Below, piece after piece: positions 638 to 18,368 of a stretch of 24,091 nt of DNA. The stretch is from a virus: positions 1 through 24,091 of the IMG/VR virus record IMGVR_UViG_3300009029_000003. One strand, 5' to 3'. The notes beneath the pieces were generated by a model. The model made no database searches and was not told where the DNA came from. It was given only the letters and a program-made list of their open reading frames with translations. The first letter of the stretch is position 1; each line of letters begins with the position of its first letter. The position numbers and the translations under genes were made by a program.

Positions 638-3205
638 TCAGTGGTGGCTGCGCGCCTTGTGGACGGCTTTGCGCAGACCGCCCGCCTTCACCGAGGCCCG
701 CAACGTGGTCGCCCGGGCTTCCCGCTCCAACAGCAGGGTTTGCATGACCGGCCACTGGGCACGCATCTGCGCGATCATCTCCCGGTCTGTCACCATCCGG
801 GCTGTCGCAGCCAACATCACCTGACGGGCACCCGCAGCCACCAACGACACAGGCACACCGGAGGCGACCTGGGCCCGGACAATCGGGAACCCGGGCGCGT
901 TCACCGCCAACGCTGCGACGAGTTCAAGGTTGCCACCCACGGCCCGCCAGTCACCGGACAGGGCTGAGGCGCGCAGGCGCCGCACCTGCTCGGGGGACAC
1001 GTCGGGTCGCATCGCGCCGGCCACCCAGATGCCGTACCTGTCATCGCCAGCCGCAACATCAGTGACACCGGTTCCGGCTTCGTCGTAGTGGGCGATCGCG
1101 GCGTGCGCGGACAGTGGCAGGTCCGCATGCCCGCCACCCAACGTGATCGGGCCCGTCGACACCAGGGACCCGTCCGCGGTCATCACGGCGCCGGTACGGA
1201 AATACCCGTAGTTGGTTTTGGAGTGTGGGGCCGTCACGCACCGGCCACTCACACCCGTGTGGCAGACACCCCACGTGGCGAGGTGCCCGAACACGCGGCC
1301 GTCATCCGTGATGGTCAGCGGGGTGGGGCCGTCGAGCTCCGGGTTGGTGAACCAGCTCGCGGGTGGTGCGGTCGGACCCGCAGAAGCCACCAAGCCTGCA
1401 CCGTCCACACACGACGGGCAGTCCCGGGCCCCGAACTCGTCCACGTTCACGATGCTCGCCACCGTTGCCTCCAACTCCTTCGCGGCCTCTGGTGCGTCCG
1501 CCCTGGTCTGCGGGGTGGTGGTCCCGTCGTCTAACTGGATGTAGGCGCCCTCAAATGCGGGGAACGGGCAGATCGTCACACCCATGACCCGGCCCTCCGT
1601 CAGGGTTTCCCGGATCTCCCCGTCCAGCATCAGGAGCAGGTCGCCGTCACCCCCGTCATCCTCCATTTCGGGCAGGGGTGCACCGTTGTCGTCCAGGAAC
1701 TCGATCGTGCTTCTCACGTCACCGATGTCCACGGACACGCCGGACAGGAACTTGTCGTGGATCAGTGCTGCGACCCGGTTCGCCTCATCCGTGTTCGTGA
1801 ACACACCAACCCCGCGCAGGCCCGTCACGCCCGCAGCGAACGGCTCACCCGTCTTCGCGTCTCGCAACCCGGCCAGGTCCACCCGTTCGATCGTGTCGAT
1901 CCTGCCCACGAGCTCGGCCTCATCGTGGCCCATCGTGGTCTTGGTGATCGCCATGACGGGGAAGGGCAGGTCACGCCAGGTCAGGCAGCCGGGGGTGATG
2001 AAACGCCCGTCGCCGGTGTCCACACCCTCAATGACCATGATGGGCATGCTGAACGCCATGTTGTCCGGGGCTGTGTCACCGCTGGTGGTGTCGGGGATGG
2101 CTGCAGGCTCGGCGGCCGCCGGCTCACCTGCCGCGGTCAGCACATTGTCGTCCTCGACAGGGTCAACAACCCCAAGGGAGTCCATGAGGTCGTCAACGGT
2201 GGCGTCCGCCGCGCGCAGCAGAGCCAGGGCTTGCGCCACAGGTGGGGGCAGGGTGGACGCGTCCACCCCGTTCAGCAAACCCAGTGCCGCGTCGAGGGTG
2301 GCGTCCACCGCTGCGGCAAGGTCGCCCGCGTCTGTCACGCCCGTTCCCGCGTCCACAGCGGGGGTTGGTGCAGGAACCTCAGCAGGGGCAGCGTCTGGTG
2401 CCGGTGCAGGGATGACCGGGGCGTCCGCGAACCTGCCGAACCTGCGGGTGCGAGAAGCCATCGCGTCCCCGGTCACGTTCGTGGACTCGTCCGGTGCGGC
2501 GTCGTCCGCGTTCAGGTCCGGGTCGACCGCACCAAGCGCCGCCAGCACCTCACCGGAGGCCACGTCCGCGTCGTGCACCGACGCGAGGGCAGCAGCAACC
2601 TCTGTGCTGGGTGCGTCGATCCCGTCGCCGGCGTTGCGGGCCGCCACAATGCACGCGTCCACCGTCTCGGCAAGGACCGTCTGGTCCCCTGCGTCACCGT
2701 CCGGGGCGAGTGTGCCGTCCATCAGGTCCAGGCTGTTGTCCGCGGCGTGCACCAACGCAACGAACGTGGTGGTGGGCCCGTCAGCGGTGGACAGGTCCAC
2801 CGAGGTCAGGGACGACAGGGCGGCCTCGATCGCGGTCGCCACCACCGCCACCAGTGCGGGAATGTCCGCCGGCGCATCGGTGGGAGCATCGGTGGGTGCG
2901 GGTGTCGCAGGGTCTGCCACCGCGGGCAGGGGTGGTGCGGGAACGAACCGGCCACGCCTGGATGTTGCAGCCTTCTCGGGTGCAGGGCTGGGGGCAGCCT
3001 TCCCCGGGGACGGGGCCTTCACAGGCGTGGCAGGGGCATCGGGGGCGGTGAAACCTGCACAGTCGCAGCCCTTCATCGAGCACGCGCCCGTGTTGTCGCC
3101 CGCTGCAACGTCCGCATGTGCGGAGGCGAGGTGCGCACAGCCAGGGGTGGCGCACTGCACGTTCGGGGCGGCATCGGCCGCCAGTTTCCTGATCTTGGTG
3201 GTCAT
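638..3205 (-). CDS. Capsid maturation protease with repeated N-terminal module
   Basis: An 855-residue head protease, far longer than a stand-alone prohead protease (about 200 residues). Residues 18-50 carry a Cys/His cluster that could bind zinc. Residues 50-380 are Ala/Pro/Asp-rich, with three related helical segments at about 117-170, 177-230 and 295-350. The protease domain is about 388-560: GHDEAELVGRID (His427) and SGVSVDIG (Ser491) match the His and Ser motifs of HK97-type S78 proteases. Residues 618-777 form a second conserved domain (HLATWGVCHTG, YGIWVAGA, NAPGFP) known from actinophage capsid proteases. The protein probably combines scaffold and protease and cleaves head proteins in the procapsid. 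It starts 2 bases after the portal stop with a GGAAGG ribosome site. The function is well supported; assignment of catalytic residues is by motif. Confidence 0.88.
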   Translation of the reverse strand: MTTKIRKLAADAAPNVQCATPGCAHLASAHADVAAGDNTGACSMKGCDCAGFTAPDAPATPVKAPSPGKAAPSPAPEKAATSRRGRFVPAPPLPAVADPATPAPTDAPTDAPADIPALVAVVATAIEAALSSLTSVDLSTADGPTTTFVALVHAADNSLDLMDGTLAPDGDAGDQTVLAETVDACIVAARNAGDGIDAPSTEVAAALASVHDADVASGEVLAALGAVDPDLNADDAAPDESTNVTGDAMASRTRRFGRFADAPVIPAPAPDAAPAEVPAPTPAVDAGTGVTDAGDLAAAVDATLDAALGLLNGVDASTLPPPVAQALALLRAADATVDDLMDSLGVVDPVEDDNVLTAAGEPAAAEPAAIPDTTSGDTAPDNMAFSMPIMVIEGVDTGDGRFITPGCLTWRDLPFPVMAITKTTMGHDEAELVGRIDTIERVDLAGLRDAKTGEPFAAGVTGLRGVGVFTNTDEANRVAALIHDKFLSGVSVDIGDVRSTIEFLDDNGAPLPEMEDDGGDGDLLLMLDGEIRETLTEGRVMGVTICPFPAFEGAYIQLDDGTTTPQTRADAPEAAKELEATVASIVNVDEFGARDCPSCVDGAGLVASAGPTAPPASWFTNPELDGPTPLTITDDGRVFGHLATWGVCHTGVSGRCVTAPHSKTNYGYFRTGAVMTADGSLVSTGPITLGGGHADLPLSAHAAIAHYDEAGTGVTDVAAGDDRYGIWVAGAMRPDVSPEQVRRLRASALSGDWRAVGGNLELVAALAVNAPGFPIVRAQVASGVPVSLVAAGARQVMLAATARMVTDREMIAQMRAQWPVMQTLLLEREARATTLRASVKAGGLRKAVHKARSHH

Positions 3206-3207
3206 GG

Positions 3208-5811
3208 TCAGCCTTCCGTGTCGTTGCTGCTGTTGTCGGTTGATGTCCAGAGGGCGTTGAAATCACAGGAGCACCCGTCGTGATCACCGGGCGCGTACCA
3301 GTCCAGGTCCGGGAAACCCTCGTCGTTCACCAACGCGTCATCGGTGAACGTCTGAAAATTGACACCGTCCAGGGCTTCGTGCGGCTCGAATGGGTGCGAG
3401 CTGGGCCCGTGACTCCACTCGTACCCGGCGTCCTGCATGCCAGCGTCGACCAGGACCCCGTTGATGGTGTCCCCGGTGCCGATCTGCCCCAGCACCTCGG
3501 TGGGGTCCGCTGGCTGCCCGTCCGCTGTCAAACCAGCCGAACCCTGCGCGCTGTTGAACCCGCCCGCGATCGACAGGGCACCCCGGATGTCCCCTACCGC
3601 CACAAACGACTCCCCGGCATCAAACTCGAGATCTGCACCCACAGGCGGGCCGCTCATCGCATTCGTGACCGCCGCGTGCAGGCGCGACTCAAGCCACTGC
3701 CACCCCGCGGACGCATCATCCTTGAACCTGCCCGCCACCTGGGCTTTCATCGCACTGCTGTCCACCCCGGCGATGCGCGCAGCCTGCCGCAGTGCCTGGT
3801 CCTGCCCGGTCGAAACCCACGTGCCCCACTGGGTTTCCAGGTCAGCGAACTCCGCATCCGACAATGCCTTCGCGTCCAACCCGAGCGCCGCGATCATCGC
3901 CGGACCAACCGCGGCGACAACCCGGCACGTGTCAACCCCCACGATCGAGGCACGGACCGCCTCAGCGCCCTTACCGCGCGCCTTGCTGATGACCTTCGCG
4001 CCGGCCTTCTCCAGGGCCCGCTTCACCGCGAGGTTCGCCGCGACCAGGAGCTTGTTGCGCAGCTCCCGGTCAATGTCCACCAGGCGCCGGGACGCCCGCC
4101 GGTCCGCGGCGCTCACCCCGGCCGACGCCACCAGGGCCGGCTTCGCAGTGACCGGAATGTCGCTGTGACGGGTCGCGATCTGGATCTGCTCCCGGTCCAA
4201 CGCCCCACCCATGAACGCTTTCGCGATGCCCTGTGCCATCGCCTCGATGGCGTACTGCTGTCCCACATCGACCCCGCCACCGATCCCCGCCTGAGCGGGT
4301 GGACCGTTCGGTGCCGGGGGTGGCATCGGTGGGGCAACAGGACTCGCGCCTGTGGGCCCGGCAGGCAGGGCGTTCGGGGTCGGGTCCGGCAACGTCGGGT
4401 CTAGCCGTTTCAAGATGGTCTCCACCAAGGCCGGGTCCAGGGTGTGAGCCTTCGTCACAATCCTGGTCAGCAACTCCGTCGAGTTGGGTTCGTCCGTGAC
4501 GGGGAACCCCAGGTAGTTCCGCAGCGCACCATCGCTGATGGCGAACCGGTCCCACGCCTGGAACGCGTCCGCGGCCCGGTCCGGGTGGGTCAACAGCTCT
4601 GTGGCGTCATGCCACACCAGCACCTTCCTGATCAGTGCTGGGTCCCAGTTCTCGTACGCGTCGAGGATTGGCCACATGAAACCCGCTGTGATCGCGTCGT
4701 TCTCCACCACCTGGATAGGTTCGATGTGGTGCCGGAACGCATCATCGTCCACCTGCCAACTTGACCAGTGGTTGAGGTCTGCTTTCCCGGTCAACACCTC
4801 GCCGGGCAGGTCGATACCGGTGGCCATGCGCTGGATCAACTCGGTTCTCTGGGCGATGTTGTCGCGGTGTTCAGGCCTGTCGAGGGTGATGTGTTTGATC
4901 GCGGCCAACGCCTCCGCGGGGCCGCGCAGCATCAGCGGCACCACCGACGCCGCCGAGCCCTCATTCGTCAGGGCGGCCGTAACGGTTTCGATCAACGTCT
5001 GCCAGAACGGGTCCGAGTTGGGGTCCATTGAGGACTCAGGGTTGGCGCCCACAATCGACAGCGAGTCCGGGATGCCCAGGATCCCGTTCAATGCCAACCT
5101 GCTCCGTGCTGTCGCCCGCACGTCCTTGCCGAGCAGCAGCAGCTCCTCACACAAGTCCAGGATGGAGCGGACGGGGGAGTCTGCGAGCATCCCCCACTCC
5201 GGGTCCGGCCACCACATGCGGGACACGAACGTGGACCCCGGGTCAAGCTCGCGGGCGTCACGCGCTGTCGCACCAGGGAACTCCAGCACCTTGTAGGTGC
5301 CGTCGTTGGTGACCAATAGCTCGGAGGTTGACCGCAGCGTCCACGACTCCAAACCCGACGCCGGGTCCGTCTCTCCGATCAGGAAGGTCTCCCCGGCCAC
5401 CTCGAAGTTCTCCGTCAGCTTCTTTTGCATCATCGCCAAGGCGAGCGGGCCGCCCGAGGCCAACCGGAGCAGGGTGTCTTCGGCGGCACGTTTCAGGTCG
5501 TCGGGGATGTCTGGTGCGAGGGCGACAGGAACAGGCACCTCGTTGCCTTGGATGTAGCTGGCGGGGAACATGCGGATCCGCATTGCACTGTTGCCCAAAT
5601 ACGCACAGGCGTAGCGGAGTTCACCCAGGTTGCGGCGGTAAGCCCACGCCTCCGCTTGCCACCCGGGCCGGATCTTCCCCCACGTCTTGGCCTGAGCCTT
5701 GTCCCCGACACTGATGACGCTCGCGGACGCGGTGAGTGCCCGCGCCATCGGTTGCGGCCGAGGCCGCAACGCCACCTGTTTGCGTCTAGCGATGAGCGGC
5801 ACGCACACCAC
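3208..5811 (-). CDS. Portal protein fused to MuF-like C-terminal region
   Basis: An 867-residue protein. Residues 1-470 resemble actinophage portal proteins, which form the dodecameric ring through which DNA enters the head (LRYACAYLGNSAMRIR near 65-80; GIDLPGEVLTGKADLNHWSSW near 332-352). A Pro-rich linker spans 471-510. The C-terminal part ends in HEALDGVNF near 811 and PGDHDGCSCDF near 841, a pattern typical of MuF/minor head proteins. Portal and MuF are usually separate genes, so this reads as a fusion. The start is uncertain: in-frame GTG codons occur at 5811, 5808 and 5802 and an ATG at 5748. The longest form overlaps the upstream glycosyltransferase gene by 26 bases. The portal call is strong; the MuF part rests on the C-terminal motif. 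Confidence 0.87.
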   Translation of the reverse strand: MVCVPLIARRKQVALRPRPQPMARALTASASVISVGDKAQAKTWGKIRPGWQAEAWAYRRNLGELRYACAYLGNSAMRIRMFPASYIQGNEVPVPVALAPDIPDDLKRAAEDTLLRLASGGPLALAMMQKKLTENFEVAGETFLIGETDPASGLESWTLRSTSELLVTNDGTYKVLEFPGATARDARELDPGSTFVSRMWWPDPEWGMLADSPVRSILDLCEELLLLGKDVRATARSRLALNGILGIPDSLSIVGANPESSMDPNSDPFWQTLIETVTAALTNEGSAASVVPLMLRGPAEALAAIKHITLDRPEHRDNIAQRTELIQRMATGIDLPGEVLTGKADLNHWSSWQVDDDAFRHHIEPIQVVENDAITAGFMWPILDAYENWDPALIRKVLVWHDATELLTHPDRAADAFQAWDRFAISDGALRNYLGFPVTDEPNSTELLTRIVTKAHTLDPALVETILKRLDPTLPDPTPNALPAGPTGASPVAPPMPPPAPNGPPAQAGIGGGVDVGQQYAIEAMAQGIAKAFMGGALDREQIQIATRHSDIPVTAKPALVASAGVSAADRRASRRLVDIDRELRNKLLVAANLAVKRALEKAGAKVISKARGKGAEAVRASIVGVDTCRVVAAVGPAMIAALGLDAKALSDAEFADLETQWGTWVSTGQDQALRQAARIAGVDSSAMKAQVAGRFKDDASAGWQWLESRLHAAVTNAMSGPPVGADLEFDAGESFVAVGDIRGALSIAGGFNSAQGSAGLTADGQPADPTEVLGQIGTGDTINGVLVDAGMQDAGYEWSHGPSSHPFEPHEALDGVNFQTFTDDALVNDEGFPDLDWYAPGDHDGCSCDFNALWTSTDNSSNDTEG

Positions 5812-6880
5812 CGCTCACCCGGGTGTCACGGTTGCTCAGAGCTTGCGTCCACGCGTCGAACCACTCGTGGGCGTGCGCTTCGATGGTGAACTCGCGGCGC
5901 ACCACCTCACGGCCGGACCCTGCAAGCTCCTCCCGGTAGTCGGGGGAGCGGACCAGCATATTGAGGTGCCGAACCCAGTCCTTACGCCCCGACGCCAATA
6001 AGCCCACTCCGCGGCCGGCGAGCCGGCGGTACTCCGCGACGGGTGAGGCCACGAACGGTTTGCCGAGGGCGGCGAACTCCAAGCCTTTCAACGCGGATTT
6101 TGCCTGGTTGAAGGGGATGTCCCCCAGCGGCACGATCCCGATGTCCAGGTTGTCTCTGATCGTTTCGGGGTAGTGGGGCAGGTCCACCCATCCGGCTGAC
6201 GGCGGGTCCACCTCGAGCCCGAGGTCGTGGCCGACACCGGACGGGTTCCCGACGACCTGCACCACAGCGCCAGTGTCCGCAACCACCCGTGCGACGGCGC
6301 CTCGGGTGACTGTGAGGTCGTCTGGGTGGGTGGCCAGGGTGCCGGTCCACCCGATCCGCACCGGGTCAACGTTGCTGTGCGGAATGATTGGCAGGTTCAG
6401 GATGCTCACGGGCAGGTAGTTGCGGACCACCCGCACCCGCCCGTGAGGCGCATACCGGGTCAGCGCCTGGGTGGAGACGGTCACCATGTCTGCGAGGGTG
6501 CATGCCTGCTTCAGGTACTCCCAGTTGCTGTGAGGCGAGGTGGCCGGGTTGACCTGGGGTGCGGCCACGTTGTGGGGGTGGACACGCTCGAAGTCATCGT
6601 CCAACTCCACCACCACCGCGACGCCTTGCGCCTGCACCAGGGGGATGACCGACGCGAGGTCGTCGTTCAACGGCCGCTGAAACACGACCACGTCTGCGTC
6701 GATCGGGGGGATGCTCCACACCCGCACTGCGCCGTCACGACCCCGGGTGCTCTTCCCCCTCAAGCCTTCAGCGGTGAACAGTTCCACGTCCGATGACAGG
6801 TTGGCGACAGCCCGAGCCGGCTGGATCATCCGGTACAAACCACAGCCGCCGCGGTCACCGGGTAGGAGCAGGACCCGCAT
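5786..6880 (-). CDS. GT-B fold glycosyltransferase (family 4-like)
   Basis: A 364-residue protein opening with a Rossmann strand and glycine-rich loop (MRVLLLPGDRGGCGLYRM), as in phage GT-B glycosyltransferases. The second half has the nucleotide-sugar side: VRIGWTGTLATHPDD, DNLDIGIVPLGDIPFNQAKS, then LEFAALGKPFVASPVAEYR. The size is normal for a complete single-chain enzyme. The donor and acceptor cannot be told. It is the first gene of the left minus-strand unit, upstream of and overlapping the portal gene, and starts 107 bases from the divergent plus-strand island. In mycobacteriophages, glycosyltransferases encoded near structural genes glycosylate capsid or tail proteins; the same role is an inference here. 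Confidence 0.85.
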   Translation of the reverse strand: MRVLLLPGDRGGCGLYRMIQPARAVANLSSDVELFTAEGLRGKSTRGRDGAVRVWSIPPIDADVVVFQRPLNDDLASVIPLVQAQGVAVVVELDDDFERVHPHNVAAPQVNPATSPHSNWEYLKQACTLADMVTVSTQALTRYAPHGRVRVVRNYLPVSILNLPIIPHSNVDPVRIGWTGTLATHPDDLTVTRGAVARVVADTGAVVQVVGNPSGVGHDLGLEVDPPSAGWVDLPHYPETIRDNLDIGIVPLGDIPFNQAKSALKGLEFAALGKPFVASPVAEYRRLAGRGVGLLASGRKDWVRHLNMLVRSPDYREELAGSGREVVRREFTIEAHAHEWFDAWTQALSNRDTRVSGGVRAAHR

Positions 6881-6931
6881 CCGTTACCCCGATCTGCCAG
6901 ATCACACGCTGTCGCACGCGAGTCTATATGG

Positions 6932-6947
6932 GGAATTACGCAACTGG
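6932..6947 (+). promoter_or_regulatory. Copy A of repeated motif in divergent intergenic region
   Basis: GGAATTACGCAACTGG matches copy B (6964-6979) apart from one extra base and one change near the 3' end. It has no -10-like hexamer after it. It lies between the divergent starts at 6880 and 6988, beside TATAGACT (on the minus strand, about 6924-6931), a weak -10 candidate for the minus-strand glycosyltransferase. An operator or activator site is possible. Confidence 0.45.
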
Positions 6948-6963
6948 GGGGTCGCTTTGTCGA

Positions 6964-6981
6964 GGAATTCGCAACTAGGAT
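6964..6981 (+). promoter_or_regulatory. Leaderless promoter with copy B of repeated motif
   Basis: GGAATTCGCAACTAGGAT ends in TAGGAT (6976-6981), a good actinobacterial -10 hexamer. The ATG at 6988 follows after six bases, where transcription would be expected to start, so the mRNA would be leaderless; there is no Shine-Dalgarno sequence. No convincing -35 box is visible 16-18 bases upstream. The same arrangement occurs on the minus strand at 15475-15492. Confidence 0.55.
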
Positions 6982-6987
6982 GCTGGA

Positions 6988-7323
6988 ATGAGCCTTCTGC
7001 AGCCCACGGACACCACCCAGCCCAGGCGTCGCACACCCGCCCGGGTCATCCGCAACAGGGCACGTCACCGCGCGACCGCGCTGCTCCTCGAAGAGTTCCC
7101 TGACCGGTTCCAGGTACTCCTTAGTCAGGAACAAAGGGTCGCCACCATCGAGGCCGCGATGCTCCTCGCTACGGGTCCCAACGACAGCGACAACGTGGTG
7201 CTGCTCAGGCCCGGAGTGCGACTGGAAGGGCAGACACCCGAAGATCGCATCGACGTCGGCCGCTGCACCCGCTGCCAGACCAGCCACGACGCCGGCCACG
7301 TCTGCCCCAGGTGCGGGTCATGA
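6988..7323 (+). CDS. Small protein with C-terminal zinc ribbon
   Basis: A 111-residue protein of no recognised family. The N-terminus is Arg-rich (RRRTPARVIRNRARHR), the middle looks helical, and the C-terminus has CTRC, about 10 residues, then CPRC, a probable zinc ribbon. It is the first gene of the plus-strand island and begins at an ATG six bases after a TAGGAT hexamer, so it is probably translated from a leaderless mRNA. Its TGA overlaps the next gene's ATG (ATGA). A nucleic-acid-binding or regulatory role would fit but is a guess. Confidence 0.7.
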   Translation: MSLLQPTDTTQPRRRTPARVIRNRARHRATALLLEEFPDRFQVLLSQEQRVATIEAAMLLATGPNDSDNVVLLRPGVRLEGQTPEDRIDVGRCTRCQTSHDAGHVCPRCGS

Positions 7324-8264
7324 GACGGTGCATCGTCATCGTCCTTGCGGGTTTCCTCATGACCTCTTTTATGGTCATGGCGACACCTCATACGGTGCAG
7401 GCGACCCTTCCCCCCCCGGTGCAAACCAGCCTCGTGGTAATGCCCCACCCTGACGACGAGTCCCAAGCCTGGTCGCTCGTTCAAAACTCAGCGAGCAACT
7501 ACAAAGTCTTCGCCTATATGACGAGAGGCGAAGCGACTGGCTTCTGTTCCACATATCCAGGCGGGCTCGATCTTAGTCTTGGTGAGGTGGCTCCATCTGG
7601 CAGCGCGTACCCCATTGCTACGAGTAAGCAGGGCTGCATTAATGCTCGCCTGGGATCTACCTTTAACATACTCACTAAGATGGGCACAGTAGATTCGTCC
7701 CTGCCTGCGTCATACGCTTATCGAGGCACCTACACGTTACCCTCAGATGGAACGACAGTCCCTGATAGGACGGTCAATGTTTATAGTGGTGGAGTCTTCG
7801 GCACGATATTGTCATTCAATCTGGGTGATGGAAAACTTACGCCTAGCGAAGTAGTCTGGGCGATCCATTCGATCCAGAACAATCTGAGCGCGCTCGGTAT
7901 CCCGAACTACCCGATCCACAACATCCTCGGGCCCTATCGCAACAGCAGCTATGCCGAATGCGCCATCTACAACCACCCCGACCACGCCGCCATCCACGCT
8001 GCCTTGTTCAACACCACCTTCGCCAACGTCGCATATAGCGCTGCACCCACGTGCGCTAGTGACCCCGATGCTGTGCGCGCCGCGGATGTGACCCAGGCGG
8101 CGTGGAACTCACTCATGGGCATCAACAGCAGCGGCGTGGACACCGGCTTCTTCCAGAAGTACTACGGATGGCTGACGGGAGGTCACTGGCCCACGGACGG
8201 CACGCCTCTAGGCCAAAGCCAGGTCTTCATGAAGCACCAGTCGTTCTGGCAGCGCGCCGGATGA
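7320..8264 (+). CDS. Exported PIG-L family deacetylase
   Basis: A 314-residue protein. HPDDE at 43-47 and HPDH at 219-222 are the two metal-binding motifs of PIG-L/MshB-type zinc enzymes, which remove N-acetyl groups from GlcNAc-containing substrates. The N-terminus (RR, then a hydrophobic stretch, then TPHTVQA) looks like a signal peptide, so the enzyme probably acts outside the membrane on a wall, capsule or glycolipid sugar. The substrate is unknown. The ATG at 7320 is chosen because it overlaps the previous stop; an in-frame GTG lies at 7311. The part at about 7490-7860 is visibly richer in A/T and in rarer codons than its neighbours, suggesting recent transfer. Mycothiol MshB enzymes are cytoplasmic, so that role is unlikely. 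Confidence 0.85.
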   Translation: MRRCIVIVLAGFLMTSFMVMATPHTVQATLPPPVQTSLVVMPHPDDESQAWSLVQNSASNYKVFAYMTRGEATGFCSTYPGGLDLSLGEVAPSGSAYPIATSKQGCINARLGSTFNILTKMGTVDSSLPASYAYRGTYTLPSDGTTVPDRTVNVYSGGVFGTILSFNLGDGKLTPSEVVWAIHSIQNNLSALGIPNYPIHNILGPYRNSSYAECAIYNHPDHAAIHAALFNTTFANVAYSAAPTCASDPDAVRAADVTQAAWNSLMGINSSGVDTGFFQKYYGWLTGGHWPTDGTPLGQSQVFMKHQSFWQRAG

Positions 8265-8292
8265 CGGAGCACCACAATGACCGTTCCCAAGC

Positions 8293-8298
8293 AAGGAG
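8293..8298 (+). promoter_or_regulatory. Ribosome binding site deciding the start at 8306
   Basis: AAGGAG lies seven bases before the ATG at 8306. An upstream in-frame ATG at 8261 overlaps the deacetylase stop, but would add a hydrophilic extension ahead of the signal peptide, so the 8306 start is preferred. Confidence 0.7.
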
Positions 8299-8305
8299 AT
8301 CCACC

Positions 8306-9034
8306 ATGCCCGCAAGTGAAGGAACCCGCGCCGTAGTCCGACTACGGGTGGGGGTGATGGCTGTGGTCGTAGCCGTCATTGGCGTGCTCGCACTGGCTGT
8401 GACAACCTCCACCAGCAGTGCCGCTGAGGCTACCTCGACCGCTTACGTCACGGGGTACTCGTATTACGACAACAGTCCTCCCGGCACCGCCATCTCTGAC
8501 CCGGTTCTACACCAGGGCGCTGGCGGGGTTGGGACATATGCCAACCCAATTACTGTGGCAGTGGGCATTGTCAACAACGCACCGATGATCGCGGCGGGCA
8601 CCCGGTTCTATATTCCGAACCTGCGGCGCTACTTCATGGTTGAGGACACCTGCGCATCCTGCGCCACCAACGTACCCTCGGGCGCAGCCTTCTGGATCGA
8701 CGTATGGGTTGACGGCTCGACCACGTCTACGGCGGCGGCTGATTTGTGCATGAACGCGATTACCGGCAACTGGAAAGTCATCCAGAATCCCGCGTCCACC
8801 TACGCCGTCGTGTCGGGTGCCATCTCCAAGGCAAGCGGCTGTACCGCGCAGTACGGCAACACGCTAGTGCTCGTCAGCTCGCCGGCCACCACCACGGCGC
8901 CTGTCGTGACCACAACCACCACGACGCCTGTCGTGACCACAACCACGGTCGCGCCCCTCAAGGCCACAAGCCTGAGCTGCCCTGTCATGGCTGTGCCCAC
9001 CGTGGGGCAGGTCGTGTCCTGCACGTACCGCTGA
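8306..9034 (+). CDS. Exported double-psi beta-barrel (expansin/3D-like) protein
   Basis: A 242-residue protein with a basic N-terminus and a hydrophobic segment (about 13-32) ending in SSAAEA, a likely signal peptide. The core from about 48 to 150 has YSYYDNSPPGTAI, GTRFYIPNLRRYFMVEDTC and WIDVWVDG. This matches the double-psi beta-barrel domain of expansin-like, barwin-like and 3D-domain proteins, including the conserved Asp in EDTC. A Thr/Pro/Val-rich linker with two copies of TTTxPVVTTT-type sequence follows, then a short Cys-containing tail. Relatives bind or loosen polysaccharides or cut peptidoglycan; whether this one is catalytic cannot be seen. It sits directly after an exported sugar deacetylase, so both may act on the host envelope. 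No transmembrane anchor or sortase signal is visible at the C-terminus. Confidence 0.72.
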   Translation: MPASEGTRAVVRLRVGVMAVVVAVIGVLALAVTTSTSSAAEATSTAYVTGYSYYDNSPPGTAISDPVLHQGAGGVGTYANPITVAVGIVNNAPMIAAGTRFYIPNLRRYFMVEDTCASCATNVPSGAAFWIDVWVDGSTTSTAAADLCMNAITGNWKVIQNPASTYAVVSGAISKASGCTAQYGNTLVLVSSPATTTAPVVTTTTTTPVVTTTTVAPLKATSLSCPVMAVPTVGQVVSCTYR

Positions 9035-9038
9035 CCCC

Positions 9039-9440
9039 ATGAGCGTGCTCTCACCACCCAGGCTGTATGCCCTCGACGCGGCGTGCCGACCGATCCGCGA
9101 AGCATTCGGATGTTCGCCGTACCTCGTCGGATCAGTGCAGGAACGCAAACCCGGGCCGCTCTCAGACGTAGACGTGCGGCTGATCCTGTCCGACGAGAAG
9201 TACGACCGACTGTTTGGCAAGCAGAGTGCCGCATTCCGGACGATCCTCGATCTAGCATTCTCCGCTTGGCTCAGCCAGCAGACCGGCCTACCGGTCGACT
9301 TTCAGATCCAACGCAGGACTGAGGCCAACGCCAACCACGCCGGGAAGCAGCGGAATCCACTTGGTGGCCGCGCACTGTCCGACTGGCTGGGCGACGCCAC
9401 GCCCATCGCAACACAACCCAATAAGGAGAACCTGACATGA
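9039..9440 (+). CDS. Minimal nucleotidyltransferase domain protein
   Basis: A 133-residue protein with the polymerase-beta-type nucleotidyltransferase signature: LVGS at 29-32, then SDVDVRLIL with Asp43 and Asp45, and a likely third acidic residue in LPVDFQIQ (Asp87). The size suits a stand-alone minimal nucleotidyltransferase. Such proteins are common in actinophages; substrates are unknown, and some bacterial relatives are toxins or antitoxins that transfer nucleotides to tRNA or protein. It starts 4 bases after the preceding stop without a clear ribosome site and overlaps the next gene by ATGA. Confidence 0.8.
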   Translation: MSVLSPPRLYALDAACRPIREAFGCSPYLVGSVQERKPGPLSDVDVRLILSDEKYDRLFGKQSAAFRTILDLAFSAWLSQQTGLPVDFQIQRRTEANANHAGKQRNPLGGRALSDWLGDATPIATQPNKENLT

Positions 9441-9607
9441 GACGACTGAAGATCCAGATGCTGCCCTACAGCCTGCGGAACAGTGAGGTTCGCTGGATGG
9501 GCGCCCGGATCCAGTGGGTGGTCAGCCCGGTGCAGATCGCGTTCTGGACTGCGATGGACACGCACCTGCCCAACAACTGGTTCACGTTCGCACCGGTCAG
9601 CCGATGA
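9437..9607 (+). CDS. Small hypothetical protein (56 aa)
   Basis: This short gene opens MRRLKIQMLPYSLRNSEV and has several Trp residues. The evidence for it is a strong AAGGAGAA site at 9422-9429, eight bases before the ATG, and an ATGA overlap with the nucleotidyltransferase stop. No family is recognised. It is followed by a 25-base gap and the RyR gene. Confidence 0.65.
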   Translation: MRRLKIQMLPYSLRNSEVRWMGARIQWVVSPVQIAFWTAMDTHLPNNWFTFAPVSR

Positions 9608-9632
9608 CGACCCACCCTCTGAGGAGCACCCA

Positions 9633-9971
9633 GTGAAGACCGAAGACATCGCCCGCGTATGCCACGAAGCCAACCGCGCCCTGCAGGCCATCCAAGGTGA
9701 CCCAACCCCGTCGCCCGCTTGGAATGACGCCCCAGACTGGCAGACCAACTCCGCAGTCGAGGGTGTTGTGAAGGCCATCGACGGACAAGGCCCCGAGCAA
9801 CTCCACGAGTCGTGGTGCGACTTCAAACGCAACGACGGATGGATGTTCGGAGACGTCAAAGACGTGGACGCCAAGACGCACCCATGCCTCGTGCCCTACG
9901 CCGATCTGCCCGACGACCAGAAGATCAAAGACCACGTATTCGGGGCCATCGTTCGCGTGCTCTCCGTTTAG
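9633..9971 (+). CDS. RyR domain protein
   Basis: A 112-residue protein that is essentially one RyR (ryanodine receptor repeat) domain: IARVCHEANRALQAIQGD, WQTNSAVEGVVKAI, then LHESWCDFKRNDGWMFG and HPCLVPYADLP before KIKDHVFGAIVRVL. RyR domains occur in many bacterial and phage proteins and in some defence-associated proteins, where ligand binding is suspected; no biochemical role can be assigned here. The GTG at 9633 is chosen because GAGGAG lies at a good distance upstream and the domain begins at once. It is followed immediately by the next ATG. Confidence 0.82.
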   Translation: MKTEDIARVCHEANRALQAIQGDPTPSPAWNDAPDWQTNSAVEGVVKAIDGQGPEQLHESWCDFKRNDGWMFGDVKDVDAKTHPCLVPYADLPDDQKIKDHVFGAIVRVLSV

Positions 9972-10202
9972 ATGAGTTCTGTCAAGATCGAGCGGACCAA
10001 CAACACTGCGATCTCGGTGAACACCAGTGCCGCCACGGGGAGCCGTGTCACGCTCGACCACTTCATGTGGGCTGCCAGAGAGCTCCAGAAGGCGATCGAC
10101 GCGGGTATGCCGATGGACACCGAGGTCAAGATTCGCAACGAGAGCGGGGTCAACGGTGTGTCCATCTCCGCTAGGGCCGTTCTGGTTCAGGACATCCCAT
10201 AA
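9972..10202 (+). CDS. Hypothetical protein (76 aa), last gene of island
   Basis: The ATG directly abuts the RyR gene's TAG. The sequence LDHFMWAARELQKAI, then MDTEVKIRNESGVNGVSISARAV, suggests a helix followed by beta strands. A similar helix-then-strand layout (LREFVTACEGLPDEVLVRI) is seen in the minus-strand protein at 12635-12880, so the two may be distantly related. The stop at 10200-10202 touches the stop of the converging glycosyltransferase at 10203-10205, leaving no space for a terminator between them. Confidence 0.7.
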   Translation: MSSVKIERTNNTAISVNTSAATGSRVTLDHFMWAARELQKAIDAGMPMDTEVKIRNESGVNGVSISARAVLVQDIP

Positions 10203-10811
10203 TCAGGTCCCGACCCACGGCCTGCCTGCGGTGTGCCCCCACCAGTGCTCCCACTGCCAGGTCACCTCGGGCAGGTGGTGGAACACCGCGCCGGCCAAGG
10301 CGAGTTTGCGCCACGTACCCCAGTCCTCGCACGGGTTATCTGGGCTGGCCCACGGCGGCGAAGTGAACCCACCCACGTCCATGAGTAGCTCGCGGCGCAC
10401 CAGGACGGTGATTGGGATAAAGTTCCCTTTGGTGATCAGCCAGTCCCGGGCCTTCGCATCGAAGGGTCGCATCGCGGCACGTTCCCTGTCGACATAGAGG
10501 ACGTCGGGTCCGTTGCTGCTGAACCACGGGTAGACCATGTCGGCGCCGGTGGCTTCCGCGCAGCACAGCAGGTGGTCTAGGTGGTGGGGGTGGAGCCAAT
10601 CGTCATCGTCCAGGAACGCCACCCATGTCGTGTCCGCTTTGGCCAGTGCCCGGTTGCGGGCCTCAGCGGCACCAGCATGTTCCAGGTCCAGGTGCACGGC
10701 AACTGCGCTGGGTTGCTGGGTTTGTGCATCCACGGACGCGAGGGCCCGCTTGAAGAACTGGGCGCGCGGCGGGATCGACGGGATGACCACGGTCAACGAC
10801 ACGCCAGTCAT
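10203..10811 (-). CDS. Family 2 glycosyltransferase (GT-A)
   Basis: A 202-residue protein with the GT-A pattern: LTVVIPSIPPR at the start, EARNRALAKADTTWVAFLDDDD (metal-binding Asp cluster at 68-71), ATGADMVYPWF, then LMDVGGF and CEDWGTWRKLALAG near the end, which supplies the usual catalytic acidic residue. It is short but appears complete. It is similar along its length to the next gene upstream (10821-11431), so the pair arose by duplication. GAGGT lies about six bases before the ATG. Donor and acceptor are unknown; capsid or tail protein, or host surface sugars, are possible acceptors. Confidence 0.88.
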   Translation of the reverse strand: MTGVSLTVVIPSIPPRAQFFKRALASVDAQTQQPSAVAVHLDLEHAGAAEARNRALAKADTTWVAFLDDDDWLHPHHLDHLLCCAEATGADMVYPWFSSNGPDVLYVDRERAAMRPFDAKARDWLITKGNFIPITVLVRRELLMDVGGFTSPPWASPDNPCEDWGTWRKLALAGAVFHHLPEVTWQWEHWWGHTAGRPWVGT

Positions 10812-10820
10812 GCGAGCACC

Positions 10821-11431
10821 TCAACTGGCAGACCAGCGGGACGGTAACCCGCTGGTGTTTCCCGAATCGTGGTGCCACTTCCAGGTGCGCTGGTCGAGGT
10901 GCACGATCTTGACCCCACCACGGGCCAACCGCAGGATCAGCCTGTAGTCCTCACCTGCCCGGTTGCCCCCCGAGTCGACGCCAGGGTCAGATCCTTGGCT
11001 TGCATCCCAGTCGTATGAAAGCCGCCCACGGCACGAATGGCGTCGGTTCTGGCCAAGAAGGTGACTGGTACCTGATGAGGCGCGCTGTCACACCATGCGT
11101 CATGTTCCCATTGTGGAAACGGGTCCATGCCGCCGACCACGTCATACCAGGGGTAGACCAGGTCAGCTCCGGTCGTCTCGGCGTGCATCATCAACGCCTG
11201 CAGGTGCTCAGGGTTCATCTCGTCGTCGTCGTCCAGGAACGCCACCCATGTTGTGGTCACCCCGGCCAGGGCCCGGTCACGGGTTGCTGGCGCCCCTTCC
11301 CGCGCAGTGTCGAACGCAATGCTGACTGCGACGGCCGGGTTGTTTTGGGTCGCGACGGAGGCCAGTGCGCGGGCCAGCAGTGTGGTCCGTGGGGCGATCG
11401 AGGGGATGGCAACGGTGATCACAGAGCTCAC
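10821..11431 (-). CDS. Family 2 glycosyltransferase with apparent frameshift
   Basis: Frame 0 from the GTG at 11431 gives ITVAIPSIAPR, the DDDD motif, TGADLVYPWYD and VGGF, then runs into unrelated sequence and stops at 10937. A -1 shift at the TTT at 11018-11020 instead reads SYDWDASQGSDPGVDSGGN, AGEDYRLILRLARGG and TWKWHHDSGNTSGLP to a TGA at 10821. This matches the C-terminus of the paralogue next door (CEDWGTWRKLALAG, TWQWEHWWGHTAGRP). The gene therefore appears to have lost one base, through real inactivation or a sequence error. No classic slippery heptamer is seen. It overlaps the methyltransferase by GTGA, and the shifted stop is 9 bases from the next gene, as expected for an intact operon. 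Confidence 0.8.
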
Positions 11432-11937
11432 CGGACACCCGACGCTCGTGTGTCCGTCCCACCCAGGTGCGTCGACCGGTGTGCGACCTGCTCGGACTCA
11501 ACAAGCCGGTAACCCGCAGCGGCCATCACATGGTCCAGCTCAGCAGCAGTGACGTTCTCATACCAGCCGGGCAGGTCTGGGTCGTCATGGTTCACACCGT
11601 GCACAGCCCTGCCCGGTCCTGCGCACGTGAACACCGCTCGCCCACCAGGCCGCAGCATAAGCAACGCGTTGACGACAATCTCCGCCCAGCGGGGCGTGTG
11701 CTCAAACAGTTCGCAGCACAAAACCAGGTCGACAGGTGCCGCAGGAAGCCACTCAGCCGCGTTGGCCACCACGTCAACATCGGCGCCAGGCACCGCGTCC
11801 ACACCCAGGTACTGTGTCCCCCGGAACAGGTCCCGGACCCTGGCGCCTGACGTGTTCCGTGACCCGAGCTCCACCACTGTGATCGCTGGGTCGTTGGTCG
11901 CCCAGCGTGCCGCGTACTCTTTCGCCTCAGCGTGCAT
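11428..11937 (-). CDS. Class I SAM-dependent methyltransferase
   Basis: A 169-residue protein with a seven-strand methyltransferase layout: motif I VELGSRNTSG at 22-31, an acidic end of strand 2 in YLGVDAVPGADV, motif IV DLVLCCELFEHTPRW near 69-83, and LLMLRPGGRAVFTC near 92-105. The fold is of the small-molecule methyltransferase type (Methyltransf_11-like), not a DNA methylase. Lying between a GT-A-like gene and two family 2 glycosyltransferases, it may methylate a sugar or the glycosylated protein, but this is inference. It overlaps the next gene by four bases. Confidence 0.83.
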   Translation of the reverse strand: MHAEAKEYAARWATNDPAITVVELGSRNTSGARVRDLFRGTQYLGVDAVPGADVDVVANAAEWLPAAPVDLVLCCELFEHTPRWAEIVVNALLMLRPGGRAVFTCAGPGRAVHGVNHDDPDLPGWYENVTAAELDHVMAAAGYRLVESEQVAHRSTHLGGTDTRASGVR

Positions 11938-11949
11938 CGCGCGTCGCCC

Positions 11950-12591
11950 TCACTTGTGCATCCACCAGGCCACCCCGTTATCGGTGCAGCTTTTAAACAC
12001 CGTGTGAACCGTGGGCCCCGTGGTGTGCGGGCGACCAAACATGGTCATGTTGAACGCTGCCATGTCAGAGTCGTCCGGGTGCAGGGTGAGCATCCCTTGA
12101 AGTGCGGTCACAAACCCGGTCACCGTCGCCAGGTCCCCGCCGAGCAGGCCCGCGTTCAACAGGAGCAGGTTCTCATGCGCACCAACCCAGGCCCGGGACC
12201 CAGGATCGTGGTGCACCGTTCTCATCCACGAGCACCCAACCAGGTCCGGCTCCGACCCGACGTACAGGGTGCCGGGCCTCATGTCAGCCCAAGGCTCCCG
12301 CAGCATCGTGACGTCCGTGCTATCTGTGATCCAAACGAACCCGCTCGTACACGTCTCGAGGTAGTCGAGTACACGATCCCACCGAGCAACGTACGGGGAT
12401 TTATCGAGCGGGGTTCCGCGTACTATCTCCACGCCAGGGAAAGACTCAGTCGCCTCGTCAACAAGCACAACCCGATTTGCACCGCGGATGCTGTGTGCCC
12501 ACTTCGCGATGACACTAATGTCCGGCTCCCACTTCGCCCCACCCTGTGGATCTTCCCGTGTGGTGAGCAGCATCGTGACGACCGTGTTCAT
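11950..12591 (-). CDS. Glycosyltransferase-like protein (GT-A type)
   Basis: A 213-residue protein without a certain family. FVWITDSTDVTMLREPW (near 84-100) resembles the DxD region of nucleotide-sugar transferases, and LLLLNAGLLGGD (near 146-157) resembles the LNAG-(L/V)-(F/L)-GG motif of GT8-like enzymes. FNMTMFGRPHTTG near the end fits the same fold. The context of a methyltransferase and two glycosyltransferases supports the call. It starts at the ATG at 12591, 43 bases after the previous stop, with only a weak ribosome site. Confidence 0.68.
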   Translation of the reverse strand: MNTVVTMLLTTREDPQGGAKWEPDISVIAKWAHSIRGANRVVLVDEATESFPGVEIVRGTPLDKSPYVARWDRVLDYLETCTSGFVWITDSTDVTMLREPWADMRPGTLYVGSEPDLVGCSWMRTVHHDPGSRAWVGAHENLLLLNAGLLGGDLATVTGFVTALQGMLTLHPDDSDMAAFNMTMFGRPHTTGPTVHTVFKSCTDNGVAWWMHK

Positions 12592-12634
12592 CGCGGGCCG
12601 CGGGTGAACGTCGACTCGGGCAGGACCAGGCGGG

Positions 12635-12880
12635 TCACGAGGTCGCGTCCGAGTTCTTGGGGTGCAGGTAGTTGACCTCGAAGGTCACGTCACGCCGGCC
12701 GCCCTCATCCAGGCGGGGCAGGTCGATACGCACCAGCACCTCGTCTGGTAGCCCTTCGCAAGCGGTGACGAACTCCCTCAGATCGTCCAGGTGGGGCCCG
12801 TTCTCGTGCGTCTCGAACGCGGGTTTGGCGACGTGGTGGACGCGGGTGACTGTCGTCTCAGTGGTCGTCCGACTACTCAT
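12635..12880 (-). CDS. Hypothetical protein (81 aa)
   Basis: No family is recognised. The sequence has HLDDLREFVTACEGLPDEVLVRI followed by RRDVTFEVNY, a helix-strand pattern like that of small phage proteins of unknown role. The ATG at 12880 overlaps the previous gene's TGA (ATGA), so the longer frame reaching 12937 is not used. The 43 bases after it carry no visible gene. Confidence 0.68.
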   Translation of the reverse strand: MSSRTTTETTVTRVHHVAKPAFETHENGPHLDDLREFVTACEGLPDEVLVRIDLPRLDEGGRRDVTFEVNYLHPKNSDATS

Positions 12881-13323
12881 GTCTGCTCCGGGTCGATAAG
12901 GTCGGCCCAGCGGTACTGCTCGCACCCGTCCGCCCATCGGAAGTCGGGGTCGCCGACCTTGTAGCGCAAGAACTCCCGCTCATGACCGTTACCCGCCGTC
13001 CATGCGCGGACCTTCTCACCCCATCCCGGCTCAGGGATGCGCGCCGGCCTGGTCTGCGCCTCGATCTGGTCGACTACAGCGTTGGTCCAGTCGTGCCGTG
13101 GCTGGCGGAGAATATCGAGCACATACTCCCTGTGTTGGCGCTCACCGAGGTCGATGATCGTCAGCGGGCGGGCGTCCGTGATGGCTTCCCCGTAGGTGAA
13201 CCCGAGGAACCCACCCAGGGGTGCAGCGCACGCCGCGGCACCAACGCCGTCGCTCATCACGATCTGGTCTGTGACACCGTTCACTGTGGCCTTGTAGATG
13301 CCACGCTCAAGTTCAACCTTCAC
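12877..13323 (-). CDS. Hypothetical protein (148 aa)
   Basis: An acidic soluble protein opening MKVELERGIYKATVNGV, with an Ala/Gly-rich stretch (GVGAAACAAPLGGFLGFTYG) near 27-46 and a Trp-rich C-terminus (FRWADGCEQYRWADL). No known domain is recognised and there is no signal peptide. A GTG start overlaps the previous stop (GTGA) and its own stop overlaps the next start, so it belongs to the 15468-10203 operon. Confidence 0.72.
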   Translation of the reverse strand: MKVELERGIYKATVNGVTDQIVMSDGVGAAACAAPLGGFLGFTYGEAITDARPLTIIDLGERQHREYVLDILRQPRHDWTNAVVDQIEAQTRPARIPEPGWGEKVRAWTAGNGHEREFLRYKVGDPDFRWADGCEQYRWADLIDPEQT

Positions 13324-13538
13324 TGCTGCTCCTCAGCTTTGGCTTTCATGGCTTTCGCAATCTCGGCCCGGCTCCGGTCCGCGGCGTGCTGTTTCCTGCG
13401 TGCCGCTGCCCGTCGCTGCTGCCTGTTGGGTTTCGGACGGGCAAGGATGCTGGACGTGGTGGCCTTGATCGCTTCCCGCAATGCTGCCGGGTCGATGACC
13501 GCTTCCCGCAGTGCTGTCGGGTCGATGACCGCTTTCAC
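13320..13538 (-). CDS. Small basic protein with repeated N-terminus (72 aa)
   Basis: The first 20 residues hold two copies of the ten-residue unit VID-P-(T/A)-ALREA, encoded by a 30-base tandem repeat. The rest is strongly basic and helical (RPKPNRQQRRAAARRKQHA, then AKAMKAKAEEQQ), which would suit nucleic-acid binding. No family is recognised. The GTG start overlaps the Acb2-like gene's stop by GTGA. Confidence 0.65.
   Translation of the reverse strand: MKAVIDPTALREAVIDPAALREAIKATTSSILARPKPNRQQRRAAARRKQHAADRSRAEIAKAMKAKAEEQQ
13471..13530 (-). repeat. 30-base tandem duplication inside a gene
   Basis: The units at 13471-13500 and 13501-13530 match at 28 of 30 bases. They encode the repeated VIDPxALREA segment of the small basic protein, and the length keeps the frame. 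Confidence 0.9.
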
Positions 13539-13759
13539 AACGGCTCGCGGGCGACCGCGCCGTTTGCCCAGAACATGGCTTCCTCGATCTTGGTGACAGC
13601 CGATGACTTTTCGCGACCCTCAGGCACCGCCCCGTTGATGAACGTGGCCAACTCCAAGCACTTGTCACGGATCTGCTCGTGCAGGACACCGCGCTGGTTC
13701 GCGTCTGTGGCCGGGTGGAACGAGAAACGGTTGTCAAGGTCGGACTGGAGCATGGTCAT
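13535..13759 (-). CDS. acb2: Acb2-like cyclic oligonucleotide sponge (anti-CBASS)
   Basis: A 74-residue protein. DNRFSFHPATDANQRGVLHE followed by IRDKCLELATFINGAVPEGR and EKSSAVTKIEEAMFWANGAVAR matches the Acb2/Tad1-hairpin family, whose members share an RF-x-(Y/F)-HxP start and a (S/G)REKS-x-A-x-TK-(L/I)-EEA-x-(M/F)-WAN C-terminal hairpin. T4 Vs.4 and Pseudomonas phage Acb2 belong to this family. Known members form hexamers that bind cyclic di- and trinucleotides and so block CBASS defence, whose effectors need those signals. Length and motif spacing are normal for the family. The start could be GTG 13762, ATG 13759 or ATG 13753; each overlaps the upstream gene. The family call is confident; activity in this phage is inferred. 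Confidence 0.82.
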   Translation of the reverse strand: MTMLQSDLDNRFSFHPATDANQRGVLHEQIRDKCLELATFINGAVPEGREKSSAVTKIEEAMFWANGAVAREPL

Positions 13760-14006
13760 CACTTTCGGTTGTGTTCATGGCTCTGCGGATGTGCAGGGCG
13801 AGCATGGAAGACGAAGATGTGAGGGTCATGCCGAGCAAGTGAGCGCCGCATTGGCAGACGCCTTCCGGTCCATCCCCGCAGTCTGCTTCGGTGTGGATGA
13901 GCGCATGTCTGACCTCGGATGGCCGGACCAGCCTGTCGTTTAGCACTCGATCGGCAGCGTTGGCTAGGCCGTCCCGGTATCCGCGCAAATACTCGGATTC
14001 GGTCAC
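13734..14006 (-). CDS. Hypothetical protein (90 aa)
   Basis: The GTG at 14006 overlaps the previous stop (GTGA), so the much longer open frame to 14138 is an extension only. The protein opens VTESEYLRGYRDGLANAADRVL and has a CGDGPEGVCQCG cluster in the middle that might bind a metal. No family is recognised. It overlaps the start of the Acb2-like gene by about 26 bases. Confidence 0.65.
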   Translation of the reverse strand: MTESEYLRGYRDGLANAADRVLNDRLVRPSEVRHALIHTEADCGDGPEGVCQCGAHLLGMTLTSSSSMLALHIRRAMNTTESDDHAPVRP

Positions 14007-14281
14007 GTGTGCTCGCTCAGCGCGCCGGTCACAGCGGACAGAGTGAGGACCAGGGCGACCCAGATCCACGCCGGCCACAGGAACCAGGTGAGCACCGCGG
14101 CGAGCACAGCGAACCAGAAGCTCACACACCACATGCACGAAGCTAACGTCACCAACCAGCCCGTGAACGACGTGGTGAACCAGGTGCGAGGCCGGGCCAG
14201 GACCTCATCCTGGGTCACCAACCGGCTCAGACGGAACACTGCGCCGGCGTTCAACACCAGCATCATCCAGGTGAGGGTCAC
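14003..14281 (-). CDS. Small membrane protein, DUF1360-like
   Basis: A 92-residue protein with about three hydrophobic segments. The pattern RLSRLVTQDEVLARPR, then TLASCMWCVSFWFAVLAAVL and a final hydrophobic stretch, resembles DUF1360 proteins, which have a paired Cys motif (C-x-W-C) after the first loop and are common in actinobacteria and their phages. The function is unknown. It begins at a GTG overlapping the exonuclease stop. A holin is a conceivable alternative, but no endolysin gene lies nearby. Confidence 0.72.
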   Translation of the reverse strand: MTLTWMMLVLNAGAVFRLSRLVTQDEVLARPRTWFTTSFTGWLVTLASCMWCVSFWFAVLAAVLTWFLWPAWIWVALVLTLSAVTGALSEHT

Positions 14282-14817
14282 GAAGCCCCCAGCACACGGT
14301 CGTAGATGGCCATGGCCCAGCGAGCGTCACCCATCGCGGTGTGTCGTGCGTCGGTGGGTGGGTCGATGCCTACCTTGGTCGACAACTCATCAGAGTCCCA
14401 CGGCAGGCTGACTTCCGTACCTGCCCGTGCCAGGAAGCCCACGGCGAGGTTCTCCACGTCGATCAGGTGGTGGTACCAGTCCGGTGCGAGACCGAACCTG
14501 CACAGCAGCAACGCGATCCGCTCAGTGTCGAAGTTCGGGACCGCTCCGACGATGTGAGCCTTGCCACCCATGAACTCTTGAATCCGCAACGCCGCGACCA
14601 ATGGCGTGACGGAGTGTTGCGGGTCGTAACGCTGATGGTGGTCGACCTTGAATGACTCGGGCAGTAGGAGGCACTTCTGCTTGTCGTGCTCAATGAACAG
14701 ATGGAGCTCTTCTGGCTCGTAGCCCTCCTCGCGGCGGACGCCAGCGAACTCCCAGATGTCGTCGGTCAGGCTCAGGCCTGTGGTCTCTGTATCGCAAAAT
14801 ACCAAGGCGCTGCTCAC
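14278..14817 (-). CDS. DnaQ-like 3'-5' exonuclease
   Basis: A DEDD-type exonuclease. Exo I is FCDTETTGL (Asp9 and Glu11 from this start), Exo II is GAVPNFDTERI, and Exo III is HTAMGDARW with the His of the DEDDh subgroup. At about 179 residues it is a stand-alone nuclease without a polymerase, as often found in phages; roles include proofreading in trans, recombination or RNA/DNA degradation. GTG 14817 is preferred because it overlaps the stop of the small gene upstream by GTGA, like most genes here; an in-frame GTG at 14832 would add only five residues. Confidence 0.85.
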   Translation of the reverse strand: MSSALVFCDTETTGLSLTDDIWEFAGVRREEGYEPEELHLFIEHDKQKCLLLPESFKVDHHQRYDPQHSVTPLVAALRIQEFMGGKAHIVGAVPNFDTERIALLLCRFGLAPDWYHHLIDVENLAVGFLARAGTEVSLPWDSDELSTKVGIDPPTDARHTAMGDARWAMAIYDRVLGAS

Positions 14818-14936
14818 CGGGATGGCTGCCACGTCTGTGCCCTACCGTGCCCGGCAAGACCAGCCAGGACCGCGTCCAGGAACAGCAGCACCCAACGCGT
14901 CACATGCTGGACCAGTAGCCGGGGTGCGCGCCTCAA
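14814..14936 (-). CDS. Very small hydrophobic protein with TTG start (40 aa)
   Basis: The reading frame from TTG 14936 gives RRAPRLLVQHVTRWVLLFLD, then AVLAGLAGHGRAQTWQPSR. The TTG overlaps the previous TGA by four bases (TTGA) and the final TGA overlaps the exonuclease GTG (GTGA). AGGTGG lies about six bases before the TTG. Without this gene there would be an unexplained gap in an otherwise gap-free operon. One possible membrane segment is present; no family is recognised. Confidence 0.5.
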   Translation of the reverse strand: MRRAPRLLVQHVTRWVLLFLDAVLAGLAGHGRAQTWQPSR

Positions 14937-18153: not shown

Positions 18154-18368
18154 CACAGCGCACCGAGCGCAGCAAGGATCTCATCAGCCAGCGCACCGAC
18201 TTCGGCACCGTCATCCCATTGGGAGTACAGGTAGGTGCCCACCGTGACGTTGGCCATCAGCACGTCGGTCACTACCTGTTTGCGCTGCTCGTTCGTCAGT
18301 GACGCATCGGCTCTGTTTGCATCTAGCCTGTCACTGATCCTCTTTAGCCTGTCGGCGTACTGACTCAT
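18153..18368 (-). CDS. Hypothetical protein (71 aa)
   Basis: An all-helical-looking protein: MSQYADRLKRISDRLDANRA and a C-terminal DDGAEVGALADEILAALGAL. No family is recognised. The ATG overlaps the large terminase stop (ATGA). Confidence 0.66.
   Translation of the reverse strand: MSQYADRLKRISDRLDANRADASLTNEQRKQVVTDVLMANVTVGTYLYSQWDDGAEVGALADEILAALGAL

Follow-up and report, generated by a model that had tools for sequence, protein, structure and literature searches.

Mycobacteriophage DyoEdafos encodes a glycosidase, gp78 or RyDEP, that degrades 2'cADPR and 3'cADPR; its catalytic dyad is formed by H75 and D117, and W78 and H100 are ligand residues (PMC13232231, a preprint of May 2026). Six of the eight RyDEP homologues tested bind the signals without cutting them, and two of the eight formed no stable complex (PMC13232231). 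Here we describe a gene predicted to belong to this family in IMG/VR record IMGVR_UViG_3300009029_000003, a viral fragment of 24,091 nt that was analysed at its full length and is referred to below as the window. The gene is part of a block of seven short, tightly packed plus-strand ORFs (6988–10202) within a minus-strand head-gene region (Table 1). The block is probably a moron-like accessory cassette in which genes for counter-defence and envelope modification were collected independently of one another.

Table 1. Features of the window, with positions counted from its first nucleotide (a dot marks a feature spanning genes of both strands)
Feature	Position	Strand	Description
Protease-type head protein	638–3205	-	
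Portal protein	3208–5811	-	
Lineage-specific insertion	5812–14002	.	about 8.2 kb, between portal and DUF1360 genes in the head-gene module
GT364, glycosyltransferase	5786–6880	-	divergent to the block; adjoins the portal gene on its upstream side
Divergent intergenic region	6881–6987		107 bp; candidate promoters in both directions
ORF 1	6988–7323	+	111 aa; C-terminal zinc-ribbon-like CxxC..CxxC
ORF 2	7320–8264	+	314 aa; signal peptide and predicted divergent PIG-L/LmbE-type de-N-acetylase with HPDDE and HPDH motifs
ORF 3	8306–9034	+	242 aa; signal peptide and predicted double-psi beta-barrel (expansin/YuiC/MltA-like), Thr-rich linker, short Cys-containing tail
ORF 4	9039–9440	+	133 aa; small nucleotidyltransferase, DVDVR and IDFQIQR-type motifs kept
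ORF 5	9437–9607	+	56 aa
ORF 6	9633–9971	+	112 aa; GTG start; RyR-domain protein, predicted RyDEP (anti-Thoeris) family
ORF 7	9972–10202	+	76 aa
GT202, family-2 glycosyltransferase	10203–10811	-	convergent with the block, no intervening spacer
GT164, second copy of the GT202 type	10937–11431	-	44% identical to GT202, C-terminally shortened
SAM-dependent methyltransferase	11428–11937	-	in the glycosylation cluster
Glycosyltransferase phrog_1579	11950–12591	-	
Acb2/Tad1 hairpin-domain protein	13535–13762	-	inside the 8.2-kb insertion, outside the plus block
DUF1360 membrane protein	14003–14281	-	core gene normally abutting the portal gene
Terminase	18365–19960	-	

The minus strand, which carries every other gene called in the 24-kb fragment, holds a head-gene module of terminase, portal and protease-type head protein genes. 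Matches to the portal protein come overwhelmingly from phages of Actinomycetota, which supports the actinobacterial host assumed in a first-pass annotation of this DNA. Also on this strand, an RNase_T/DnaQ-type exonuclease gene (14278–14832) adjoins the DUF1360 gene, and the sequence at the contig end (3–602) encodes C-terminal repeats of the DNGDGT(F)TLTLADGS type that match surface repeats with collagen flanks.

Within the block, the gaps between neighbouring ORFs range from 0 to 41 nt where there is no 4-nt overlap. When codon statistics were trained on the window's minus-strand genes, six of the seven ORFs scored better in the plus frame; the signal for ORF 1 is ambiguous (0.08 versus 0.13 on the reverse strand), but its product has a zinc-ribbon motif, CxxC..CxxC, at its end, which gives a sub-threshold profile match. 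A search for phage relatives of this ORF found none. ORFs and codon statistics thus agree, within this fragment, on a plus-strand gene block set amid minus-strand genes, and the abutment on the converging gene that had been described is likewise seen, the two stops occupying 10202 and 10203. Searches of NCBIfam and PADLOC left all seven genes without a meaningful assignment, no tRNA genes were found in the window, and no repeats flank the block as a mark of recombination.

The first-pass annotation had given the block a promoter of its own. A sigma-70 scan returned no promoter and a terminator scan no match, but the sole plus-strand TANNNT box of the divergent intergenic region, TAGGAT at 6976–6981, lies exactly at −12 from the ATG at 6988. 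Such boxes are rare (39 on the plus strand in 24 kb, or 0.16% of positions), and at the 42 gene starts of the window, searched from −14 to −10, only two are found, both exactly at −12. Because of this rarity and exact placement, TAGGAT is a plausible leaderless actinobacterial promoter, with transcription starting at the ATG itself; the claim is thus retained as a candidate. On the minus strand, TAGACT begins at 6926, and the GT364 start lies 46 nt downstream of it.

The surroundings of the block were compared with those of portal relatives, comprising 80 viral loci from an alignment-based portal scan, 61 of which also hold DUF1360. In 60 of the 61, no more than about 200 bp separate the portal gene from the DUF1360 homologue upstream of it; the distance is 1,055 bp in the other one and 8.2 kb in the window, and the intervening DNA of the window is therefore a lineage-specific insertion, containing the inverted block, four glycosyltransferase genes, the methyltransferase gene, an Acb2/Tad1-like gene and several small genes. 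None of the 80 portal relatives carries any gene of the plus block. Two loci from a scan with GT364 (L234 and L242) have the arrangement GT2-GT2-GT364 in the same order and on the same strand, with the block absent and about 0.3–0.4 kb between the genes; they act as empty sites, albeit in distant relatives. The block has thus been inserted between genes that are adjacent in relatives, both at the level of DUF1360 and portal and at that of the glycosyltransferases, and its earlier description as an accessory, moron-like island is supported. Another distant relative (L041) has a small inverted island (5950–7633) with the nucleotidyltransferase gene between its portal/MuF and protease genes; inverted accessory islands of differing content thus recur in this neighbourhood. 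Within the glycosyltransferase cluster, GT164 is possibly a decaying duplicate of the GT202 type. The arrangement would be explained if a short, separately promoted operon had been inserted, in reverse, into a glycosyltransferase cluster that is itself an insertion in an actinophage head-gene module.

ORF 6 matches PF02026 (RyR, R12-type) with 43.8 bits (cut-off 27.4; E = 3.1e-11) and is 43% identical to DyoEdafos RyDEP over 56 aa. In the gap-free BLASTP alignment (offset 17), H58, W61, H83 and D100 of ORF 6 correspond to H75, W78, H100 and D117 of RyDEP. Given a score above the cut-off and the retention of all four residues, ORF 6 fits the RyDEP family and anti-Thoeris action is the best prediction. 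As most of the tested homologues only bind, and two of the eight gave no stable complex, activity of ORF 6 is not assured, and sequestration is likelier than hydrolysis: the protein would serve as a sponge, rather than as a hydrolase, for the Thoeris immune signals 2'/3' cyclic ADP-ribose. RyR proteins are found in 285 phage records. The Acb2/Tad1-type gene matches PF24729 over the full profile length (63.6 bits, cut-off 27; E = 2e-17), its best PDB match is 'Acb2 homolog 43' (E = 4.8e-5), and its relatives, found in 361 phage records, are common in actinophages as 'hypothetical protein'. Its product is predicted to be a second putative nucleotide-signal sponge within the insertion, which may back up the RyR protein from about 3.5 kb away. 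Of the counter-defence role proposed earlier, the part that stands inside the block is the RyR gene; the support from the Acb2/Tad1 hairpin comes from a neighbour outside it.

Signal-peptide-like N termini were read from the sequences of ORF 2 and ORF 3 and of two relatives discussed below, the barrel protein of L013 and the deacetylase of L142. In the family alignment of ORF 2, H43, P44, D45, D46 and E47, together with H219, D221 and H222, are invariant and form the HPDDE and HPDH metal-site motifs. ORF 2 itself scores 19.3 bits against PIG-L, below the cut-off of 28.2; a cellular relative (L134), which aligns to ORF 2 at 8.8e-13, passes with 35.5 bits (E = 1.7e-8) and is a bacterial protein (1276–2178) in which a member of the secreted PIG-L branch is fused to CWB2, a cell-wall-binding domain (E = 1.3e-13). 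A single-sequence AlphaFold model of ORF 2 was unusable (pLDDT 36), and a PDB profile search with its alignment gave no meaningful match. A peptide-pattern search found nothing in viral or genome contigs, and tblastn nothing in phages or plasmids; a six-frame search of 396 genomes followed by an alignment scan recovered a few cellular relatives and a single viral one (L142), which carries the deacetylase alone, the other block genes being absent. In L142 (5180–6909) a band-7 gene lies upstream, and a papain-like protease gene comes directly before the gene of the secreted PIG-L protein, an arrangement reminiscent of Streptomyces phage accessory regions. Of the window genes tested, that of ORF 2 has the lowest GC content (0.57) and the weakest codon fit, which would suit a recent acquisition.

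For ORF 3, Pfam gave no match and a PDB profile search with its alignment no meaningful one. Its AlphaFold model (pLDDT 61.7) has expansin, YuiC and MltA as leading structural matches, at moderate similarity (Z 5 to 6.5), with a best Foldseek E value of 5e-3. All members of the family share two acidic residues (D114 and D132), and one of six members matches the 3D domain PF06725, at E = 0.028 only. The barrel gene is mobile in appearance: a copy 79% identical to ORF 3 lies in L013, which by tblastn shares nothing else with the window; the gene also occurs in tRNA-rich accessory DNA of Streptomyces phages and adjoins the terminase gene in L016, and the family extends to Actinobacteria and Rhodobacteraceae. 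A lipoprotein version is found in two viral contigs, probably of Gram-negative hosts (L017, 5854–6456, and L018). ORF 2 and ORF 3 are predicted to work at the cell envelope, where the deacetylase would strip N-acetyl groups from an amino sugar of the infected cell's outer envelope and the barrel protein would bind or cut wall glycan; such action may serve a surface change against other phages, or easier release.

The family of ORF 4 is represented in at least 224 other viral stretches, in varied contexts. Among 80 nucleotidyltransferase loci, an RyR gene accompanies the nucleotidyltransferase in one (L061), and neither the barrel gene nor the deacetylase gene does so in any. Two assignments of ORF 4 were considered and rejected: membership of a HEPN/MNT toxin–antitoxin pair, as the neighbouring ORFs lack a HEPN match, and cyclic-nucleotide synthase, as the protein matches the NTP_transf_2 type. 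The nucleotidyltransferase and the three small ORFs would be further accessory genes.

These gene histories bear on whether the block is one system or a collection. All seven genes could form a cooperative, unfamiliar defence or counter-defence system in which the nucleotidyltransferase makes or modifies a nucleotide, the RyR protein senses it and the exported proteins are the effectors; the tight operon with its candidate promoter, and the position of the nucleotidyltransferase gene just two genes from that of a nucleotide-binding RyR protein, are in keeping with this. We nevertheless regard it as very unlikely, since the recognisable parts occur apart (RyR at one of the 80 nucleotidyltransferase loci, the barrel alone in L013 and in Streptomyces phages, the deacetylase alone in L142 and in bacteria), PADLOC matches none of the seven genes, and the nucleotidyltransferase is not of the cyclic-nucleotide synthase type. 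Independent occurrence of the genes was what the first-pass annotation itself had named as a refutation. Since all the recognisable ones are found singly elsewhere, the combination, put forward there as a system unlike any familiar one, is better accounted for by separately mobile genes than by a single new system. It is more improbable still that a misassembly of two contigs produced the strand switch: only a single copy of the block was found, as such an error would allow, but both junctions are clean, one a divergent region with candidate promoters both ways and the other a convergent stop-to-stop contact, and the composition of the block is close to that of the rest of the window.

Three further readings concern the exported proteins. 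The neighbouring glycosyltransferases might join the deacetylase and the barrel protein in remodelling the surface glycans of the host, so as to exclude superinfection or change the receptor, as would suit a block nested among four glycosyltransferase genes and a methyltransferase gene, two exported products with signal peptides, and a cellular deacetylase relative that bears a cell-wall-binding domain. We think this unlikely: the glycosyltransferases are encoded on the other strand and have no obvious signal peptide, so they may instead glycosylate a virion protein or DNA, and clusters of glycosyltransferase genes that lack the block are a common sight close to the terminase and portal genes. 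Nor is it likely that the exported pair are late wall enzymes aiding lysis or release, the block being a displaced lysis-type segment with passengers. The L013 barrel gene does lie directly upstream of a CHAP/PG-binding endolysin gene, and the modelled fold resembles those of the wall enzymes MltA and YuiC; against this, neither an endolysin nor a holin was recognised within the block or beside it, the Streptomyces phages carry the barrel gene in an accessory region, and PIG-L enzymes deacetylate rather than cut. A distinctly speculative proposal, which we doubt, is that the two exported proteins form an enzyme pair that deacetylates wall or surface amino sugars and then binds or cuts the altered glycan, and that is encoded together with anti-signalling genes acting in the cytosol; if it were true, one inverted cassette would act on both the outer and the inner layers of host protection.

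With the block read, as we prefer, as an independently assembled accessory cassette, a predicted member of the very recently described RyDEP family and a predicted Acb2/Tad1 sponge share one actinophage insertion, which suggests head-module insertions as places to seek counter-defence genes. Phages also carry a secreted PIG-L branch, of which no family library used here scored the window protein above its cut-off, and a mobile secreted barrel protein.

The block resembles phage morons and accessory islands in its candidate promoter, opposite orientation, absence from relatives and independent gene histories. ORF 2 keeps the metal-site motifs of the PIG-L/LmbE de-N-acetylases (MshB, BshB and GlcNAc-PI deacetylase), although it is exported, larger and below the Pfam cut-off, and falls in a secreted branch in which viral members are few. 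ORF 3 is similar to expansins, YuiC/Sps and MltA (3D domain) with respect to secretion, a putative barrel fold as judged by model and structural matches, and the acidic residues D114 and D132, but differs in its Thr-rich linker, short Cys-containing tail and lack of a Pfam match. Like the MNT-type nucleotidyltransferases (MntA of HEPN/MNT), ORF 4 has a small fold that stands alone and carries catalytic Asp motifs; in contrast to them, no HEPN partner was recognised beside it, and it belongs to a separate viral family without a curated model. The Acb2/Tad1-type neighbour shares with the described sponges a hairpin domain scoring above the Pfam cut-off, and is set apart from the block by strand and distance. 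ORF 6 has in common with RyDEP the PF02026 domain, catalytic dyad and ligand residues in register, and an actinophage-type virus as carrier; in contrast to the DyoEdafos gene, which sits inside NARP1, no NARP1 genes were recognised beside the window gene.
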